A DNA stretch of 61,618 bases, taken from contig CADAZN010000028.1 in the NCBI GenBank assembly GCA_902792435.1, positions 1 to 61,618 of the forward strand, given 5' to 3'. A model generated the notes under the pieces. It did no database searches. It saw only the letters and a list, made by a program, of their open reading frames with translations, and was not told the origin of the DNA. This DNA comes from an uncultured Bacteroidales bacterium. GTDB lineage: Bacteria > Bacteroidota > Bacteroidia > Bacteroidales > Muribaculaceae. Positions within the stretch are counted from its first letter, which is position 1; the number at the start of each line of letters is the position of its first letter. Shown in pieces: positions 9,546 through 29,112 of the stretch. The translations under genes were made by a program, and so were the position numbers.

Positions 9546-10220
9546 TTATTTCAGTAGGTCGGGGCGGAGGCGCTTGGTGCGCTCGAGGGCTTGCTGCATT
9601 TTCCACTCCTCAATTTTTGCGAAATTGCCACTGAGCAGTATCTCGGGAACTTGCCATCCGTTGAACTCGGCAGGACGGGTGTAGACGGGAGCCTCGAGCA
9701 GGTTGTCCTGGAAGGAATCGTTGAGGGCGCTCTGTTCATCGCCGATGGCGCCGGGAATGAGCCTTATCACCGCGTCGGCAATTATTGCAGCAGGCAATTC
9801 GCCGCCAGTGAGCACATAGTTGCCAATTGATATCTCCCTGGTTACGAGATGCTCGCGTATGCGATAGTCCACGCCCTTGTAATGCCCGCACAGGATAATG
9901 AGATTCTCCATGAGCGACAGTTGGTTGGCTATGGGTTGGTCGAGGATTTCGCCGTCGGGCGAGGTGAAAATCACCTCGTCATAGTTGCGCTCGCTCTTGA
10001 GCTGCTCGATGCATCGGTACACAGGCTCGATTTGCATCACCATGCCGGCCTCTCCGCCAAATGGGTAGTCGTCGACCTTGCGATGCTTGCGCAGCGACCA
10101 GTCGCGCAGGTTGTGTATGTGAATCTCGACAAGTCCTTTGTCCTGGGCGCGCTGAACGATGCTGCAGTGCAGAGGCGACTCCAGGGCTTCGGGCATCACA
10201 GTGAGTATATCTATTCGCAT
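9546..10220 (-). CDS. trmD: tRNA (guanine-37-N1)-methyltransferase
   Basis: TrmD methylates G37 next to the anticodon of tRNAs reading CNN codons, using S-adenosylmethionine and preventing frameshifts. The deep-knot SPOUT motifs are clear: [12 protein letters not shown] (about 107-118) and [15 protein letters not shown] (about 131-145). The 224-residue length is normal for the family. It has its own promoter rather than lying in the rpsP-rimM-rplS operon seen in many bacteria. Confidence 0.95.
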
Positions 10221-10258
10221 GATTTTCAGATTATTTTCGTTTCACTCGTTTACGGCTT

Positions 10259-10267
10259 GCAAAGTTA
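10259..10267 (-). promoter_or_regulatory. trmD promoter, -7 element TAACTTTGC
   Basis: Perfect -7 consensus on the minus strand, 38 bases upstream of the trmD ATG. Confidence 0.75.
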
Positions 10268-10310
10268 GCAATTTTTTTCCAACCCAACAAAATCAACATT
10301 GAGATAATGG

Positions 10311-12122
10311 TCAAGGCTTTCGGGCCATTACCTCATCGTAATTGTACTTGTCGCTCACGATGCGCTTCTTGGCCTTGTAGTTGGGGTTGGAAATGTCGAG
10401 AGAAGCTTGATAGTAAGGGCTGTTGATGCCTGCAAGCCTGAGCATCATGTGGGCCGCGTCAACCACCAAACCTGGGCGCGCCGTTGCTTGTTTCAGTTCC
10501 TTGTAGAGTTGAGGATGCTTCTTGATGTAGGTGTCGCTGCACCACACCATGAATGGCACGTCAAACTGGCAGTGCAGCAGCTGCGGATTGTCGGTGGTGA
10601 CATTGCCGCGTCCGCAATGGTCACGATAGTCGTAGGCCTCATCGCCGTGGTCCGAGAAATAGAGCACCACGGTGTTCTTGTCTTTCCATATGTCGAAGAT
10701 GTGCTGTACCACTGCGTCGTTGTAATAGGTGGCATTGTCATATTGCGCAATGTAGGTGCGCTTATCCTTGTCAAGGTATTTTTCCTTGCTCTTAATCGAG
10801 TCGGCGTTAAACACGTCAAATCCCTTCTTCTTTGGGTATCGGCCCACTGGGTGCACGTGTTGCCCCATTAGGTGGAAGATGTAGAGGTTGTTTTTGGCAG
10901 CGGGCACTTTTGACTTGTTTTGGAAATTGGTGATTAGGTTATAGTCAAAAGTCATGCTGATGTTGGATGTTTCGTCATAGCTCAACGCAGCGATGGTGTC
11001 GTTGTAGATGAACGCGTTCACAGTGATGGTAAACATCTCGGTCTTAGCATAGTTGCGCTGGTTGTCCCAGAAGTAGACGTTGAAGCCGGCATGCTTGAAC
11101 ACCGCTGGGAAGATGGGCTTGTCATACCACATCTCGCCGCCAGAGTAGTCGTTAAGGGAGAAGAAGTTCTTCTCAACCTGCGATGTGGCATTATAGGGTG
11201 TTACCATGTCGGTAAAGACTATGAGGTTTCCCTTGTCACGCTCCTTGATTAAATTGGGCGTGGTGTTGAGTTCATAGCCATAGAGCGAGGCGTGCTGTTT
11301 AATATAGCTTTCGCCCATCACGACAATGACATTTAATGAGTCGGAATCGGCTAGGGTGATGGGTGATTTTTCCACCGCTTTAGCTACGCTGACTGCGTAT
11401 TTCAGGTCGGCTTCACTCACTTTCAGGCAGCACAACGAGTAGTAAGATGTGCTAAGGTGGTCGATGGCGTCGACGCCAAAGTCGCGCACCCACTGGTTCA
11501 GCTCTTTGGAGTGCTTGCACATCGCCAACTTCACATAATTGTGCGACAGGTACACTCCCCACAGCATCAGTGGCAGCACAATACAGGTGATAATGGCCTT
11601 GGGAATGCGAAGATTTACCGCTTTCTTGATAATTTTTTTAATTAGCTCGCCCGTGACTACAAGGGCGATGATAGCTATAATAGCGGCATAGGCCCACAGA
11701 CTCTTGGCACTGAGGAAATAGGTTGAGACAAACTCGCTCGCCTCTTTGCTGTTGGTCTCGGCAAGTAGCACGAGCACTCGTGGGCCGAGCATCATCTCGA
11801 AATTGAAGAAAAGGAAGATGTAGACCGCCTCGAGCGTGATGAGAATAGTGTAGCACACCGCCTTGAAGGTGATGCGTGCCCAGCGTGGCTTGAGTGCATG
11901 CAGCACAACGGTGAGCACATAGGCAATGGCAATGCCCAGTGCCAGGCATTGAACAGCATGATAAGGAGAATTGTCGGGGTACATGAAGCACCCGACAATG
12001 TATCCAAACGTGAGGCTATTGTTGATAAGCAGCACCGCTAAAAAGAAGTTGAACTCTTCGAGGACAGGCTTTAAGAGTTTCGCAACCAATGAGCGTGCTT
12101 TGTCCAAATATTTATTAGCCAT
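10311..12122 (-). CDS. EptA-like phosphoethanolamine transferase (sulfatase fold)
   Basis: Enzymes of this family move phosphoethanolamine from phosphatidylethanolamine to lipid A or other glycans on the outer face of the inner membrane. About five N-terminal membrane helices (to about 190) precede a periplasmic alkaline-phosphatase-fold domain. Visible active-site features are the probable nucleophile Thr313 in NATSQ, GESYIKQHASLYGY near 265-285, the HLMGQHVHP segment, and the metal-binding SDHGDEAYD near 489. Phosphatidylethanolamine would come from the psd/pssA genes of this window. The exact acceptor is not readable from sequence; lipid A modification would affect cationic peptide resistance. 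Confidence 0.85.
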   Translation of the reverse strand: MANKYLDKARSLVAKLLKPVLEEFNFFLAVLLINNSLTFGYIVGCFMYPDNSPYHAVQCLALGIAIAYVLTVVLHALKPRWARITFKAVCYTILITLEAVYIFLFFNFEMMLGPRVLVLLAETNSKEASEFVSTYFLSAKSLWAYAAIIAIIALVVTGELIKKIIKKAVNLRIPKAIITCIVLPLMLWGVYLSHNYVKLAMCKHSKELNQWVRDFGVDAIDHLSTSYYSLCCLKVSEADLKYAVSVAKAVEKSPITLADSDSLNVIVVMGESYIKQHASLYGYELNTTPNLIKERDKGNLIVFTDMVTPYNATSQVEKNFFSLNDYSGGEMWYDKPIFPAVFKHAGFNVYFWDNQRNYAKTEMFTITVNAFIYNDTIAALSYDETSNISMTFDYNLITNFQNKSKVPAAKNNLYIFHLMGQHVHPVGRYPKKKGFDVFNADSIKSKEKYLDKDKRTYIAQYDNATYYNDAVVQHIFDIWKDKNTVVLYFSDHGDEAYDYRDHCGRGNVTTDNPQLLHCQFDVPFMVWCSDTYIKKHPQLYKELKQATARPGLVVDAAHMMLRLAGINSPYYQASLDISNPNYKAKKRIVSDKYNYDEVMARKP

Positions 12123-23005: not shown

Positions 23006-23014
23006 TATCTTTGC
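23006..23014 (+). promoter_or_regulatory. Promoter of the AAA ATPase gene, -7 element TATCTTTGC
   Basis: Perfect -7 consensus 18 bases before the ATG at 23032. Just upstream, a 14-base unit (T-run plus CGGTAA) is repeated twice in tandem (about 22966-22993). Confidence 0.75.
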
Positions 23015-23031
23015 AAAAAATACAGAGCAAT

Positions 23032-24165
23032 ATGAACAAAATATTAAATCCGTTTATCGTCTCGGGAAAGATTCCACATGTCTATTTTTGCGATAGAGAG
23101 AAGGAAGCTGCCGCATTAGAAAAGGCCCTTACCAACGAATTGAATGTGGTGCTCACATCATCGCGCCGCATGGGAAAAACCTCGCTCGTTGATTATGTCT
23201 TTGACAAGTCATCGATAAAAAAAGAATATATAACCATTACAGTTGACATCCTGCACACCACTACTTTTCGCGAGTTTATCTTAGCTTTTGGAAATGCAGT
23301 TTTCGACTGTGTGGCTACTCGTAGCAAGAAACTGCGCAAGCAATTTGTCACTTTGCTTAAATCGCTGAGCGCTAGTTTTGGATATGACCCATTGCAAAAC
23401 ACTCCCACATTTGATGTCAAAATAGGTGACATTATTCGACCTGAATATACTCTTGGAGAAATCTTCGAATACCTTGAGAAAGTAGACAAGCGATGTCTTG
23501 TGGTTATCGACGAATTCCAGCAGATTACTCGTTATCCTGAGAAAAACGTAGAGGCTCTTCTAAGAACTCACATACAGAAACTCTCAAATGCCAATTTTGT
23601 CTTCTCAGGGAGTAGGCGCCGTTTGATGGAAGAGATGTTTTTCTCGTCTAAGCGACCTTTTTACCAGAGCGCCAAAGCCATCAGGCTTGAACCTATTGAT
23701 CGGGATATATATCTTGAATTTGCCACTCGTCTTTTCAATGAGGCAGGGAAAAATATCGCTCCCGATGCTTTTCGCCACGCATACGACACGTTTTGGGGAG
23801 TCACATTCTATGTGCAACGCATCATGAAAGATGCTTTTGCCGAGACACCAGCTGGCGCAACTTGCGATGTCGACACCATTAAGCAATTAATCGAAGATTT
23901 CATCGACGAGACCGATTCGCACCAGCGCGAGCAGTTGTCGTTTATTACCGAGGCACAAAAGGAGCTGCTTTATGCTATTCACGCCGAAGGACAGGCGCAA
24001 GCCATCACATCAATGGCATTCAACAAGAAACATCGACTGCGCTCCCCAAGTTCAACACAGTCGGCAGCGCTCAAACTTCTGGAGTACGACCTGATCACCT
24101 GCAAAGAAAAAATCTATTCCCTCTCCGACCCTCTGCTTAGCCTCTGGCTCTCGAGGAAAAGGTGA
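23032..24165 (+). CDS. AAA family ATPase (archaeal ATPase type)
   Basis: This 377-residue STAND/MNS-like ATPase has Walker A SSRRMGKTS (about 43-51), Walker B CLVVIDEFQQ (about 154-164), the FSGSRR sensor segment and a C-terminal winged-helix-like region. Start MNKILNPF at 23032 is chosen because the promoter overlaps an upstream TTG alternative. Proteins of this kind are common, variable accessory genes in Bacteroidota, and their role is not established. Base composition is more A/T-rich than its core neighbours, which fits acquisition by transfer. Confidence 0.8.
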   Translation: MNKILNPFIVSGKIPHVYFCDREKEAAALEKALTNELNVVLTSSRRMGKTSLVDYVFDKSSIKKEYITITVDILHTTTFREFILAFGNAVFDCVATRSKKLRKQFVTLLKSLSASFGYDPLQNTPTFDVKIGDIIRPEYTLGEIFEYLEKVDKRCLVVIDEFQQITRYPEKNVEALLRTHIQKLSNANFVFSGSRRRLMEEMFFSSKRPFYQSAKAIRLEPIDRDIYLEFATRLFNEAGKNIAPDAFRHAYDTFWGVTFYVQRIMKDAFAETPAGATCDVDTIKQLIEDFIDETDSHQREQLSFITEAQKELLYAIHAEGQAQAITSMAFNKKHRLRSPSSTQSAALKLLEYDLITCKEKIYSLSDPLLSLWLSRKR

Positions 24166-24709: not shown

Positions 24710-26344
24710 TTAGGAGAGGGCTTGGATGTGCTTGATGTCGTCTTCGAAGGAGTCCTTGCTGATAGCGCGTGCTTTGAGTCGTGAGCGATAGGTATAGATT
24801 GTGGCAATTGAAGCTCGCAGGATGCTTGCTATCTCCTTGTTGTCGGTGATGCCGAGGCGTATTAGCGCTAGGATGCGGAGTTCGCGTGTGAGCTGTTCGC
24901 CATCTTTCGGTTCGATGTGCTGATCTTGCTCCAGCAAGCTGTTTACCGCTTGGATGAAATTAGGATAGATGTTAAGGAATGCCGAGTCGAAGTTCTGGTA
25001 AAAGAGTGTGGCATTCTCATAGTCGAGATGCGGACTCTTGAGTTGAGCTTTCAGTTCCTTGAGTCGGTCTTCCATGGCGAGTCGGTTCAGCGCTTTGCGC
25101 TGTGTCTCATTCTTGTCGATGAGGTTGCTGCTGAAAGTGAGGAATCGGCCCAAGTACTGCTCCTTGATTTTGTCACGCTCCTGCAGCTGCTGGTTGGTGC
25201 TCTCGAGCTCATTGACGGTGTCGTTGAGCTGGTCATTGATAAGCTTTCTGCTCTCGCTCAGGCGGCGATATCGACGGTAGAGCAGGGTGGTGCCGATGAT
25301 TCCCGCCACGAGCATCAATGCCAGGATGCTCAAGGCAATGAGGAAGTTGCGCATGTTGCGCTGGTTCTTCTCCTGCTTGTCTTGATAGGCCTTGATGATG
25401 CGCGGCACCAGCTGCGACGCTTGCACGTTGCGCAGTCGCGTGCCATAGAAATTGGCATCGGCAACGCTGATGTTGATGTAGCGGTAGGCTCGGTCGATGT
25501 CGCCCTCGTCGAAGAGCAGGTCGGCGAGCTGCCTGAGTGCCGAGTTCTCCATGATGCACCCCTCGATGTCGCTCGCTGCGCTCATTGCCAGCAGCTGTTT
25601 TTGCTTGTCGTGGTCGTTGAGCAGGCTATAGTAGAACGCCAGGGTGCTGGTGACCACTGAGAATGTGCGGTCGCCGCTGCGATAGTCTTTGAGCATCTCC
25701 TCGAGCAGCTCAATTGCCTCTTGTGTCTTTCCGGTGTCGTTCAGGTAGCTGGCTTGATAGAGCCTGTTGCGCTCAGAGCCTGGCTCCGAGAGCTTTGCAA
25801 TCTTGAGACGGTAGTTGGTGAGTTGCTGCTGGTAAAGCTTCTCGTAGCTGCTTCCCGCGTTGAACTCAAGCCTGAACAGGCACATGTCGGACAAGTTCTT
25901 GTAGTAAACTTGACGTTGATCTTTGCTCAGCGTTGTGGTGTCGATGGTTTGTGACAACTGCTCGGCCTCATCAAGGAGGTAGGACTTGTTGAGCAGATGG
26001 ATGAGGTTAAGCTTACTGTTGATTACTTTAGCGCTATCGCCCAAAGCTCTGGCGATGTCGATGTTACGCCGCATGTAATGTTGCGCCGAGTCGTTTTGAA
26101 ACTCAGCGTACTCGTTGTAGAGCGCATTGTTGATGTCATATTCCTTGGCAAGCACAGCCGGGTCGCTGATGGGTGCAGGCAGTGTGTTTTTGATTTTGTC
26201 GATAGCCCTTTTCTTATTGGCAATGCGCGTGTCGTGCTCCTTGATTAGCTTGTCGAGGTGGTCAAAATAGTGTGTGGCTCCCGCCATCAAGCAAGTGCCC
26301 CAAAAAGCTGTTATCACAATAATTATGACCCTAAATCTCATCAT
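24710..26344 (-). CDS. DUF6377 membrane-bound transcriptional regulator with TPR region
   Basis: This 544-residue protein has an N-terminal hydrophobic segment (about 5-22), TPR-like helices (about 60-310), a membrane helix (about 325-350, LIALSILALMLVAGIIGTTLLY), a coiled coil, and a C-terminal LuxR-like helix-turn-helix (about 480-535, with LIRLGITDNKEIASILRAS and IYTYRSRLKAR). The form is the Bacteroidota DUF6377 family of membrane-anchored regulators, with the sensing part outside and the DNA-binding part inside. Its start codon overlaps the stop of the DUF559 gene (ATGA), so that gene is now translationally upstream of it. It may control the neighbouring amylase, but that is only proximity. 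Confidence 0.8.
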   Translation of the reverse strand: MMRFRVIIIVITAFWGTCLMAGATHYFDHLDKLIKEHDTRIANKKRAIDKIKNTLPAPISDPAVLAKEYDINNALYNEYAEFQNDSAQHYMRRNIDIARALGDSAKVINSKLNLIHLLNKSYLLDEAEQLSQTIDTTTLSKDQRQVYYKNLSDMCLFRLEFNAGSSYEKLYQQQLTNYRLKIAKLSEPGSERNRLYQASYLNDTGKTQEAIELLEEMLKDYRSGDRTFSVVTSTLAFYYSLLNDHDKQKQLLAMSAASDIEGCIMENSALRQLADLLFDEGDIDRAYRYINISVADANFYGTRLRNVQASQLVPRIIKAYQDKQEKNQRNMRNFLIALSILALMLVAGIIGTTLLYRRYRRLSESRKLINDQLNDTVNELESTNQQLQERDKIKEQYLGRFLTFSSNLIDKNETQRKALNRLAMEDRLKELKAQLKSPHLDYENATLFYQNFDSAFLNIYPNFIQAVNSLLEQDQHIEPKDGEQLTRELRILALIRLGITDNKEIASILRASIATIYTYRSRLKARAISKDSFEDDIKHIQALS

Positions 26345-26871
26345 AAACTAAAATGGGTGTTAAGCTCCCCCTCTAAGATAGAGGGGGATACAGGGGGAGT
26401 ATGAACACTTGCAATAGACTTATCTCTTTCATTTTTGAAATTGATTATTGCGTTTATTATGGTTTGTGGCTGTTCAAACACTATCTTATTCTCAAAATGC
26501 AAAGTGTGAATACCAAATTTTTCACGAAGGAATTCATCCCTCTTGAAATCATTTAATGGTTGATTGACGTGAAAATGATAGTCCCCATCAAGTTCTATGC
26601 ATAGCTTGAGTTTTGGACAATAAAAGTCTAAAATGAATTGGTCTATGCTGAATTGTCGGCGAAAACGCAGTCCCTCTACTTGGTTGCATCTTAACCAGTT
26701 CCAAAGGCTTTTTTCGGCCATTGTAGAGTTGTTTCGCAATTCTCGACGCAGGTATTTTAATTTAGGAGTATTTTTGAGATGGTCAAGACTCGGTGCGATC
26801 ATACTCCCCCTGGCCCCCTCTATCTTAGAGGGGGAGCTAGCCGCGCTATATTTTGCACTTTGTGAGGCCAT
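26341..26871 (-). CDS. DUF559 endonuclease-domain protein encoded inside an inverted-repeat-bounded unit
   Basis: The core (about residues 35-150) is the DUF559 fold related to very-short-patch and PD-(D/E)xK nucleases, with FILDFYCPKLKLCIELDG as the probable active-site region and HTLHFEN further on. Two starts are possible: 26871, or an ATG at 26802 that lies within the right inverted repeat. The residues SSPSKIEGARGS near the N terminus and PPVSPSILEGE near the C terminus are simply translations of the two repeats. The stop overlaps the DUF6377 start. The biological role of DUF559 proteins is unknown; the repeat structure suggests a mobile or selfish unit. Confidence 0.8.
   Translation of the reverse strand: MASQSAKYSAASSPSKIEGARGSMIAPSLDHLKNTPKLKYLRRELRNNSTMAEKSLWNWLRCNQVEGLRFRRQFSIDQFILDFYCPKLKLCIELDGDYHFHVNQPLNDFKRDEFLREKFGIHTLHFENKIVFEQPQTIINAIINFKNERDKSIASVHTPPVSPSILEGELNTHFSL
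26363..26404. repeat. Left inverted repeat of the DUF559 unit
   Basis: This is a 42-base repeat with an inner palindrome (CCCCCTCTA, three-base loop, TAGAGGGGG) followed by a second G run and AGTATGA. It is the reverse complement of 26799-26838 except for a short central difference (ATAC against CC). Confidence 0.85.
26799..26838. repeat. Right inverted repeat of the DUF559 unit
   Basis: This 40-base repeat is in opposite orientation to 26363-26404, identical apart from a 2-base size difference in the centre. It contains the same inner palindrome, and its inner edge includes the candidate ATG at 26802. Confidence 0.85.
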
Positions 26872-27096
26872 TAATTAGAATGAAGACTGAAGTTCTGAAT
26901 AAAGGAATTTAGTCATAATGCAAAAATATACATAATGTGGGGAAATGGGCAAAATATTCACTTTTTTTATGATTTAAATGTTATGCCAAGTGACCATTTT
27001 TTTGTAATTTTGTATGTTTTTAGCGCAATGCCTCAAACGGGTAAGACTTTGTTTTAAATAAGCTATTGTAAGTGTTTGTTAGTCAGGTTGTTTTGA

Positions 27097-29112
<2,016 letters not shown>

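Follow-up and report, generated by a model that had tools for sequence, protein, structure and literature searches.

The window examined here, a stretch of 61,618 nucleotides (nt) on contig CADAZN010000028.1 of assembly GCA_902792435.1, comes from an uncultured Muribaculaceae bacterium whose genome (2.96 Mb on 56 contigs) is denoted G000, and it carries a DUF559 nuclease gene which is bracketed by two inverted copies of a hairpin repeat. The first-pass annotation of this DNA took the arrangement for a minimal mobile or selfish unit made of a nuclease and its repeat ends, a layout for which it had no named element, and proposed that further copies of the repeat be sought in this genome, repeat-flanked DUF559 genes in relatives, and a clean empty site at the locus. 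The bracketing of the gene by inverted repeats of 40-42 nt was confirmed, as was the overlap of its stop codon (26343-26341) with the ATG (26344-26342) of a DUF6377 gene. The unit itself comprises the following features:

26341..26871, minus strand: open reading frame (ORF) of the DUF559 (Vsr-like, PD-(D/E)XK-type) nuclease, 176 amino acids from ATG 26871, with an alternative ATG at 26802
26440..26757, minus strand: DUF559 domain (profile search of the genome contigs, E value 6.3e-26)
26363..26404, plus strand: repeat copy 1, on the 3' side of the gene; hairpin CCCCCTCT-AAGAT-AGAGGGGG, a spacer, and the tail GGGGGAGTATGA directed inward
26799..26838, minus strand: repeat copy 2, on the 5' side, inverted relative to copy 1 and translated in frame by the ORF

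The nuclease and its repeats

The two repeats share 25 nt of perfect complementarity and an identical 14-nt tail, CAGGGGGAGTATGA, and differ in a spacer of 3 versus 1 nt. Each is a pyrimidine/purine hairpin followed by a G-rich tail which mirrors the purine arm (score 0.90 for copy 1 and 0.89 for copy 2), under a rule that sets G opposite G and A or T opposite A. As DNA, the hairpin of copy 1 is predicted to fold at -9.9 kcal/mol (z -2.8) and that of copy 2 at -9.1 kcal/mol (z -1.5), 22 of 200 shuffles of the latter folding equally well; the hairpin pattern occurs at two sites in the window (four strand matches), where 0.03 would be expected by chance. Judged on this sequence grammar, with folding computed for the hairpin alone, the window repeats fit the published BoxC/PIT/intrastrand-triplex class, and to that extent the first-pass annotation was mistaken in seeing no named counterpart. 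The parts of Holder et al. (2015; PMC4666352) drawn upon here describe a G/C-rich motif of this class in more than 260 genomes, with high local variability, and their BoxC, PIT and TM(ECO) triplex repeats resemble the present ones in having a pyrimidine arm, a purine arm and a mirrored purine (or G/T) tail, as well as many copies which vary between strains. Those same parts report no nuclease partner, adjacent mobility genes or mobility-providing activities beside the motif and leave its mechanism and origin open, whereas the repeats described here are tied to DUF559/YcjD genes.

The repeat is also dispersed well beyond this locus. A search of G000 with the 25-nt core, up to 3 mismatches being permitted, returned 19 matches on 13 contigs, including the two that flank the gene, of which 12 carry the exact tail GGGGGAGTATGA; the reversed core, used as a control, returned none in the same 2.96 Mb. 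By contrast, profile search of the contigs found a single DUF559 match. The proposed search for further copies thus succeeded. Degenerate AACTGA-like tandem repeats follow several of the copies (L004, L005, L010 and L016), and the amplified segment may therefore exceed the repeat.

Regarding the protein, the part of the ORF read from ATG 26802 matches PF04480 with an E value of 4.8e-26 (91.2 bits against a curated cut-off of 20.6), and Pfam finds DUF559 alone, with no transposase domain. An alignment of 22 of the 30 DUF559 matches in the window's genus gives D44, E55, D57, G58 and H61 among the invariant residues. The AlphaFold model of the domain (predicted local distance difference test score 87) retrieves 3hrl as its best fold match (E 2.5e-7) and the catalytic domain of the homing endonuclease I-Bth0305I, 3r3p, as its second (template modelling score 0.66, E 3e-3), with weaker matches to PvuRts1I and Vsr, and a profile comparison against PDB sequences gives the same two leading structures (3hrl, E 1.5e-28; 3r3p, E 4.3e-5). 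Against the YcjD equivalog model PRK09767 of NCBIfam, the protein scores 52.3 bits, below the cut-off of 218, by which measure it is classed as a relative of YcjD and not an equivalog.

The two ends of the ORF fared differently from what had been proposed. ATG 26802, which the first-pass annotation offered as the candidate start, does lie inside repeat copy 2, but the ORF opens upstream of it at ATG 26871, outside the repeat; because the orthologues in the related genomes G031 and G039 likewise open upstream and read through the repeat in frame, as SSPSKIEGAxGSM, ATG 26871 is probably the true start, and ATG 26802 was dropped. At the other end, the C-terminal tail is indeed encoded by repeat copy 1 in the window, but both orthologues checked, again G031 and G039, end before that repeat; the tail is therefore probably peculiar to the window gene, and was ruled out as a conserved feature.

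Pairing of DUF559 genes with hairpin repeats

In the window's genus, a pyrimidine/purine hairpin lies within 260 nt of 25 of the 30 DUF559 matches, fragments included, and 22 of the 30 stand between inverted repeats that score above 99% of controls, so that the proposed check for repeat-flanked DUF559 genes in relatives was borne out. The same holds far outside the genus. Scanning of species genomes supplied 79 usable named loci with DUF559 (one of 80 was incomplete). The top-scoring inverted repeat that each locus has across its two flanks of 250 nt was compared with 3,810 in-locus control placements, and it beat 99% of controls in 48 loci and 95% in 56. By their record titles, the 48 loci span Bacteroidota, Acidobacteria, Nitrospirae, Nitrospinae, Cyanobacteria, Kiritimatiellae, Akkermansiaceae, an Anaerolineae, Patescibacteria and Alphaproteobacteria, although labels can be wrong for the many that are metagenome assemblies. 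A further set, picked by us among the matches listed, from genomes with more than one DUF559 gene and before their flanks were viewed, mostly contributes several loci per genome; 21 of its 39 usable loci (one of 40 was incomplete) beat 99% of controls. Within a genome, the repeat pair of a DUF559 gene is more alike than pairs formed across genes (Mann-Whitney p 4e-9).

Counts of pyrimidine/purine hairpins whose stem is at least 7 long agree with this: 214 lie beside 120 DUF559 matches (at 110 of the 120 loci), compared to 11 at 600 control placements, and when ORFs serve as controls, a hairpin is found at 113/120 DUF559 genes versus 59/670 other genes in the same loci. The third-strand grammar extends to these hairpins, in which the purine arm is often mirrored by what follows it, A or T being allowed opposite A, as in AAGGAGGGG then GGGGTGGTT, and AGAGGGGG then GGGGGAGT. 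Over all 214, unselected, the tail matches the arm at 0.789, versus 0.687 when tails are redistributed among the hairpins (standard deviation 0.006, maximum 0.706 in 500 permutations), and the match is at least 0.85 in 107. Repeats with this grammar stand on both sides of the gene in 31 of 120 DUF559 loci and on at least one side in 60, compared to 0/120 and 2/120 control placements, respectively. Taken across many phyla, the pairing of repeat and nuclease is well supported as a general one. At one locus on the Picosynechococcus plasmid pAQ6 (NC_010480.1), many G/C-tract repeats surround a DUF559 gene in a run of DUF499, two hypothetical genes, PIN, DUF559 and DUF1156.

Repeat number and nuclease are associated at the level of whole genomes as well. 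Among the 101 genomes of the genus, the core with a 5-nt loop occurs in 17/27 with DUF559 versus 18/74 others (p 4e-4), and at least three matches of either loop variant in 21/27 versus 19/74 (p 3e-6), kinship being ignored in both values and one site being able to match on both strands. The nuclease clade nearest that of the window (8 genomes) is chiefly accompanied by the 5-nt-loop repeat and another clade (6 genomes) by a 6-nt-loop repeat, with G081 having both, although the two clades also track species descent. Of 296 genomes sampled across the phylum, 171 contain DUF559; the CCCCTCCT/AGGAGGGG hairpin, a pattern that captures one repeat type, was found in 22, 20 of these with DUF559, and all 14 genomes with at least two hairpin copies have the nuclease (p 4e-4, kinship ignored).

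Escherichia coli provides a familiar instance. BoxC repeats have been known from this species since the 1990s, according to the portions of Holder et al. used here, which count the BoxC-class motif 23 times in K-12 (PMC4666352), and YcjD was placed among the PD-(D/E)XK nucleases in 2005, as far as the consulted part of that work goes (PMC1189080). The ycjD gene, a DUF559 gene between sapF and fabI, has BoxC-like repeats directly downstream; a query spanning ycjD and BoxC is covered to 80% at a place in 3,363 of 5,426 E. coli genomes, and one MG1655 record has 20 BoxC places. In 60 evenly spaced rows, one plasmid row being dropped, the number of BoxC places is 14-31 with ycjD (median 21, n=37) and 1-21 without it (median 6, n=22; p 5e-9), which is a correlation and not proof, because E. 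coli lineages are few and related.

Movement of the unit and of single repeats

The genes on either side of the unit allowed the orthologous site to be located in related species, and the outcome of these comparisons is set out in the following features of the window:

24710..26344, minus strand: neighbouring DUF6377 gene (PF19904, E 3.3e-78), whose start codon the insertion directly precedes
27142..29112, plus strand: gyrB, the other neighbour, used to locate the orthologous site in relatives
~26347..26912, no strand: inserted segment as inferred from empty sites, i.e. the unit from repeat to repeat together with a further 16 nt and 74 nt beyond the repeats
26341..26346, no strand: possible target-site duplication TCATAA, left copy (suggestive)
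26913..26918, no strand: possible target-site duplication TCATAA, right copy (suggestive)
10223..10330, no strand: approximate empty site matching the place of the G039 unit (blastn of locus L035 against the window, alignment; the intergenic stretch has diverged)

The start of gyrB was located in 88 of the 101 genomes of the genus, and 17 of 30 gyrB loci were examined. The unit precedes gyrB in the window and in G031, a relic with degenerate repeats and no alignable nuclease body is left in G097, and the loci of G049, G086 and G090 were uninformative. In the other 11 loci, all from related species (G077, G063, G039, G019, G083, G010, G026, G046, G071, G030 and G051), the site is empty, the DUF6377 gene and the gyrB leader having no unit between them, and in G039, G071 and G030 both flank alignments abut directly, sharing 5 to 12 nt. 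Empty sites of the kind that had been looked for therefore exist. They also correct the extent of the unit: the repeats bracket the gene as the first-pass annotation had it, but the inserted segment is larger than the distance from repeat to repeat.

The unit has also been found elsewhere. G039, in which the gyrB site is empty, has the unit, with 84% identity over 518 nt, at a different place, the flanks of which match the window at 9573-10223 and from 10330 onward, where the window is without a unit. When eight units (L020, L030, L031, L033, L035, L036, L038 and L042) were compared by blastn of 1,150 nt at each locus end, detectable flank sharing was seen between G000 and G031 alone.

Single repeats, too, are present or absent at sites within genes. 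In a conserved gene (G000:C8:27667-28458), aligned in 13 of 30 loci, the repeat has one orientation in G000, G030, G077 and G083 and the opposite orientation in G046; a degenerate trace is left in G097, and in G049 (L255) a tandem unit of about 60 nt holding the repeat occurs four times within the open reading frame, a local amplification in coding sequence. At this site the repeat is absent from G071, G039, G031, G090 and G063, and none is clear in G051. A second gene (G000:C14:106322-107074), aligned in 17 of 30 loci with the misaligned rows of G031 and G086 excluded, has an in-frame repeat in G000 which is absent from 13 relatives, with a trace in G046; we take its product, by eye, to be a TonB-dependent receptor. 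Past mobility of the unit and of the repeats is well supported by these comparisons and, together with the repeat flanks of other DUF559 genes, they uphold the earlier description of a mobile or selfish unit. Plasmids and phages are unlikely to be the main carriers, given that the window protein as query, a search that does not extend to distant DUF559 types, matched 36 of 72,556 plasmid records (some being chromosomes deposited under a plasmid label) as well as 2 of 50,697 phage records, all below 60% identity.

Repeats are likewise located in frame within long ORFs at two other places in G000, L006 (G000:C23:581-667) and L009 (G000:C4:29402), where they would be translated as SSPSKIEGAGGSM or SSPSKIEGVGGSM, and a repeat may contribute a peptide to other proteins in this way. 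Rickettsia palindromic elements likewise add a peptide to host proteins.

A proposed nuclease-repeat system and its rivals

We consider it probable that the locus represents a mobile system of the kind known from repetitive extragenic palindromic (REP) sequences, in which inverted BoxC-type repeats enclose a DUF559/YcjD nuclease gene and further copies of the repeat have spread as non-autonomous passengers. In the mechanism that we favour, the nuclease would recognise the hairpin or triplex once its strand is exposed, for instance behind the replication fork, and would cut at or beside the repeat; host repair might then copy the repeat, and rarely the whole unit, to a new place, so that spread would resemble what is thought for homing endonucleases and for the pairs of REP and REP-associated tyrosine transposase (RAYT).

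As in REP/RAYT systems (REPtron; TnpA-REP), palindromic repeats in inverted orientation, directional and with a tail motif, enclose a nuclease gene and have further copies elsewhere; the window gene is flanked by inverted copies of just such a dispersed palindrome. The enzyme of those systems is an HUH Y1 transposase (PF01797), whereas the window gene, a Vsr-like PD-(D/E)XK-type nuclease, matches PF04480 alone; in its repeat, a mirrored third strand follows the pyrimidine/purine hairpin, and the RAYT-type genes of this genus are accompanied by different repeats. The two enzymes being unrelated, the system would work in a REP/RAYT-like manner without being a member of that group. The CGTC-type REPs of Di Nocera (2013; PMC3733652) were rejected as the same class, the stems and tags being different in the part of that description considered here. 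The nearest functionally named relative of solved structure, by both profile and fold, is I-Bth0305I; in contrast to a homing endonuclease of this kind, the layout gives no sign of an intron or intein, for which no search was made, and the flanking repeats also occur alone. Titles and abstract starts among the open-licence papers listed yielded no link of DUF559 to BoxC/triplex-type repeats.

Several observations weigh against this reading. Nuclease binding and cutting of the repeat are steps that we infer. The insertion extends past the terminal inverted repeats, by 16 nt at one junction and 74 nt at the other, and the TCATAA duplication which flanks the window insertion is suggestive at most, because it is degenerate in G031. 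In the inverted-repeat test, 31 of the 79 named loci fail at the 99% level; E. coli K-12 has repeats on only one side of ycjD, and no inverted pair was found around ycjD in the two copies of the locus tested (a near-identical locus has an inverted-repeat score of 9.0). The third-strand grammar also occurs away from DUF559 genes, in 8 of the 11 hairpins at control placements, as dispersed copies of the repeat would show, and it therefore marks the repeat class rather than the flank. The genus, phylum and E. coli associations carry no phylogenetic correction, and within the genus 10/27 DUF559 genomes are without the 5-nt-loop core, some having the other loop variant, while the 18 of 74 that hold it without DUF559 include repeat-rich ones. 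The 6-nt-loop core has 72 sites in G068 and 59 in G061, and the 5-nt-loop core 59, 58 and 44 strand matches in G008, G066 and G056, all five being without a DUF559 match up to an E value of 10 (this search of 11 genomes gave one weak match, in G077); other genomes, too, combine many repeats with an absence of DUF559. The link must therefore be non-obligatory, or the nuclease frequently lost.

Persistence of repeats without a detectable nuclease would also suit a caretaker or domesticated enzyme, which cuts or trims hairpin or triplex repeats, e.g. at stalled forks, to the benefit of the cell or of the repeats, their spread being left to replication slippage and recombination. The fourfold tandem amplification in G049 fits slippage, and the presence of one nuclease gene against 19 repeat cores in G000 is in keeping with such a role. 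We nevertheless regard it as unlikely, given that the unit occupies two different sites in related species, that single repeats come and go at sites in genes, and that flanking pairs are more alike within than between genes, which is the mark of a mobile unit.

It appears improbable that the repeats are moved by an enzyme of another kind, for example a RAYT (Y1) transposase, and that DUF559 genes are simply favoured landing places. Y1 matches do occur in 14 of 16 genomes tested, with four in that of the window, and a RAYT-type Y1 gene (G000:C8:26457-26801, L313), with long GC-rich inverted repeats of its own, is located roughly 1 kb away from one copy of the repeat, so that G000 houses two REP-like systems. 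However, among the 40 Y1 genes scored from 13 genomes (26/28 strong and 14/20 weak of 48 matches), 23 of the 24 usable strong ones have terminal inverted repeats of another kind, and a pyrimidine/purine hairpin lies within 260 nt of 1/26; the 14 weak ones have neither terminal inverted repeats nor such a hairpin within 260 nt. Each enzyme family therefore has its own repeats, RAYTs were rejected as owners of those described here, and G025 and G013 have DUF559 and repeats with no Y1 match.

A minimal classical transposon, with the nuclease as a cut-and-paste transposase acting on terminal inverted repeats, is a very improbable reading: such repeats, the empty sites and a possible 6-bp duplication are what it would leave, but the inserted segment reaches past the terminal repeats on both sides, one DUF559 gene stands against 19 cores in G000, and Pfam detects no transposase domain. 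Least probable of all is a role in mismatch repair of the Vsr type, coupled to a cytosine methyltransferase, the case made for Caulobacter VsrA, which shares the fold family and has a DUF559 domain in an account whose consulted part does not mention repeats as a component of the system (PMC12907096), since repeats that were incidental terminators would leave the inverted pairs, the third-strand mirror and a 17-fold hairpin excess over other genes unexplained.

Beyond this locus, we are evenly divided on the wider proposal that DUF559/YcjD proteins form a non-HUH superfamily of repeat-mobilising nucleases acting on hairpin or triplex DNA, each with cognate repeats, in many phyla, and that they are the missing source both of the BoxC/PIT/triplex repeats and of the instability which genomes are reported to show around them, E. 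coli K-12 included, which has ycjD as well as about 20 copies of BoxC. Were it true, the repeats would account for what this functionally uncharacterised nuclease family does, and the nucleases for where the repeats come from; a REP/RAYT-like life style would also have evolved twice, the second time on a nuclease fold with no relation to the first.

As for the wider surroundings of the unit, a PADLOC search gave weak matches at most, and a gene for an archaeal-type ATPase (PF01637) near the unit, at 23011-24165, has no more than weak matches to candidate defence families.

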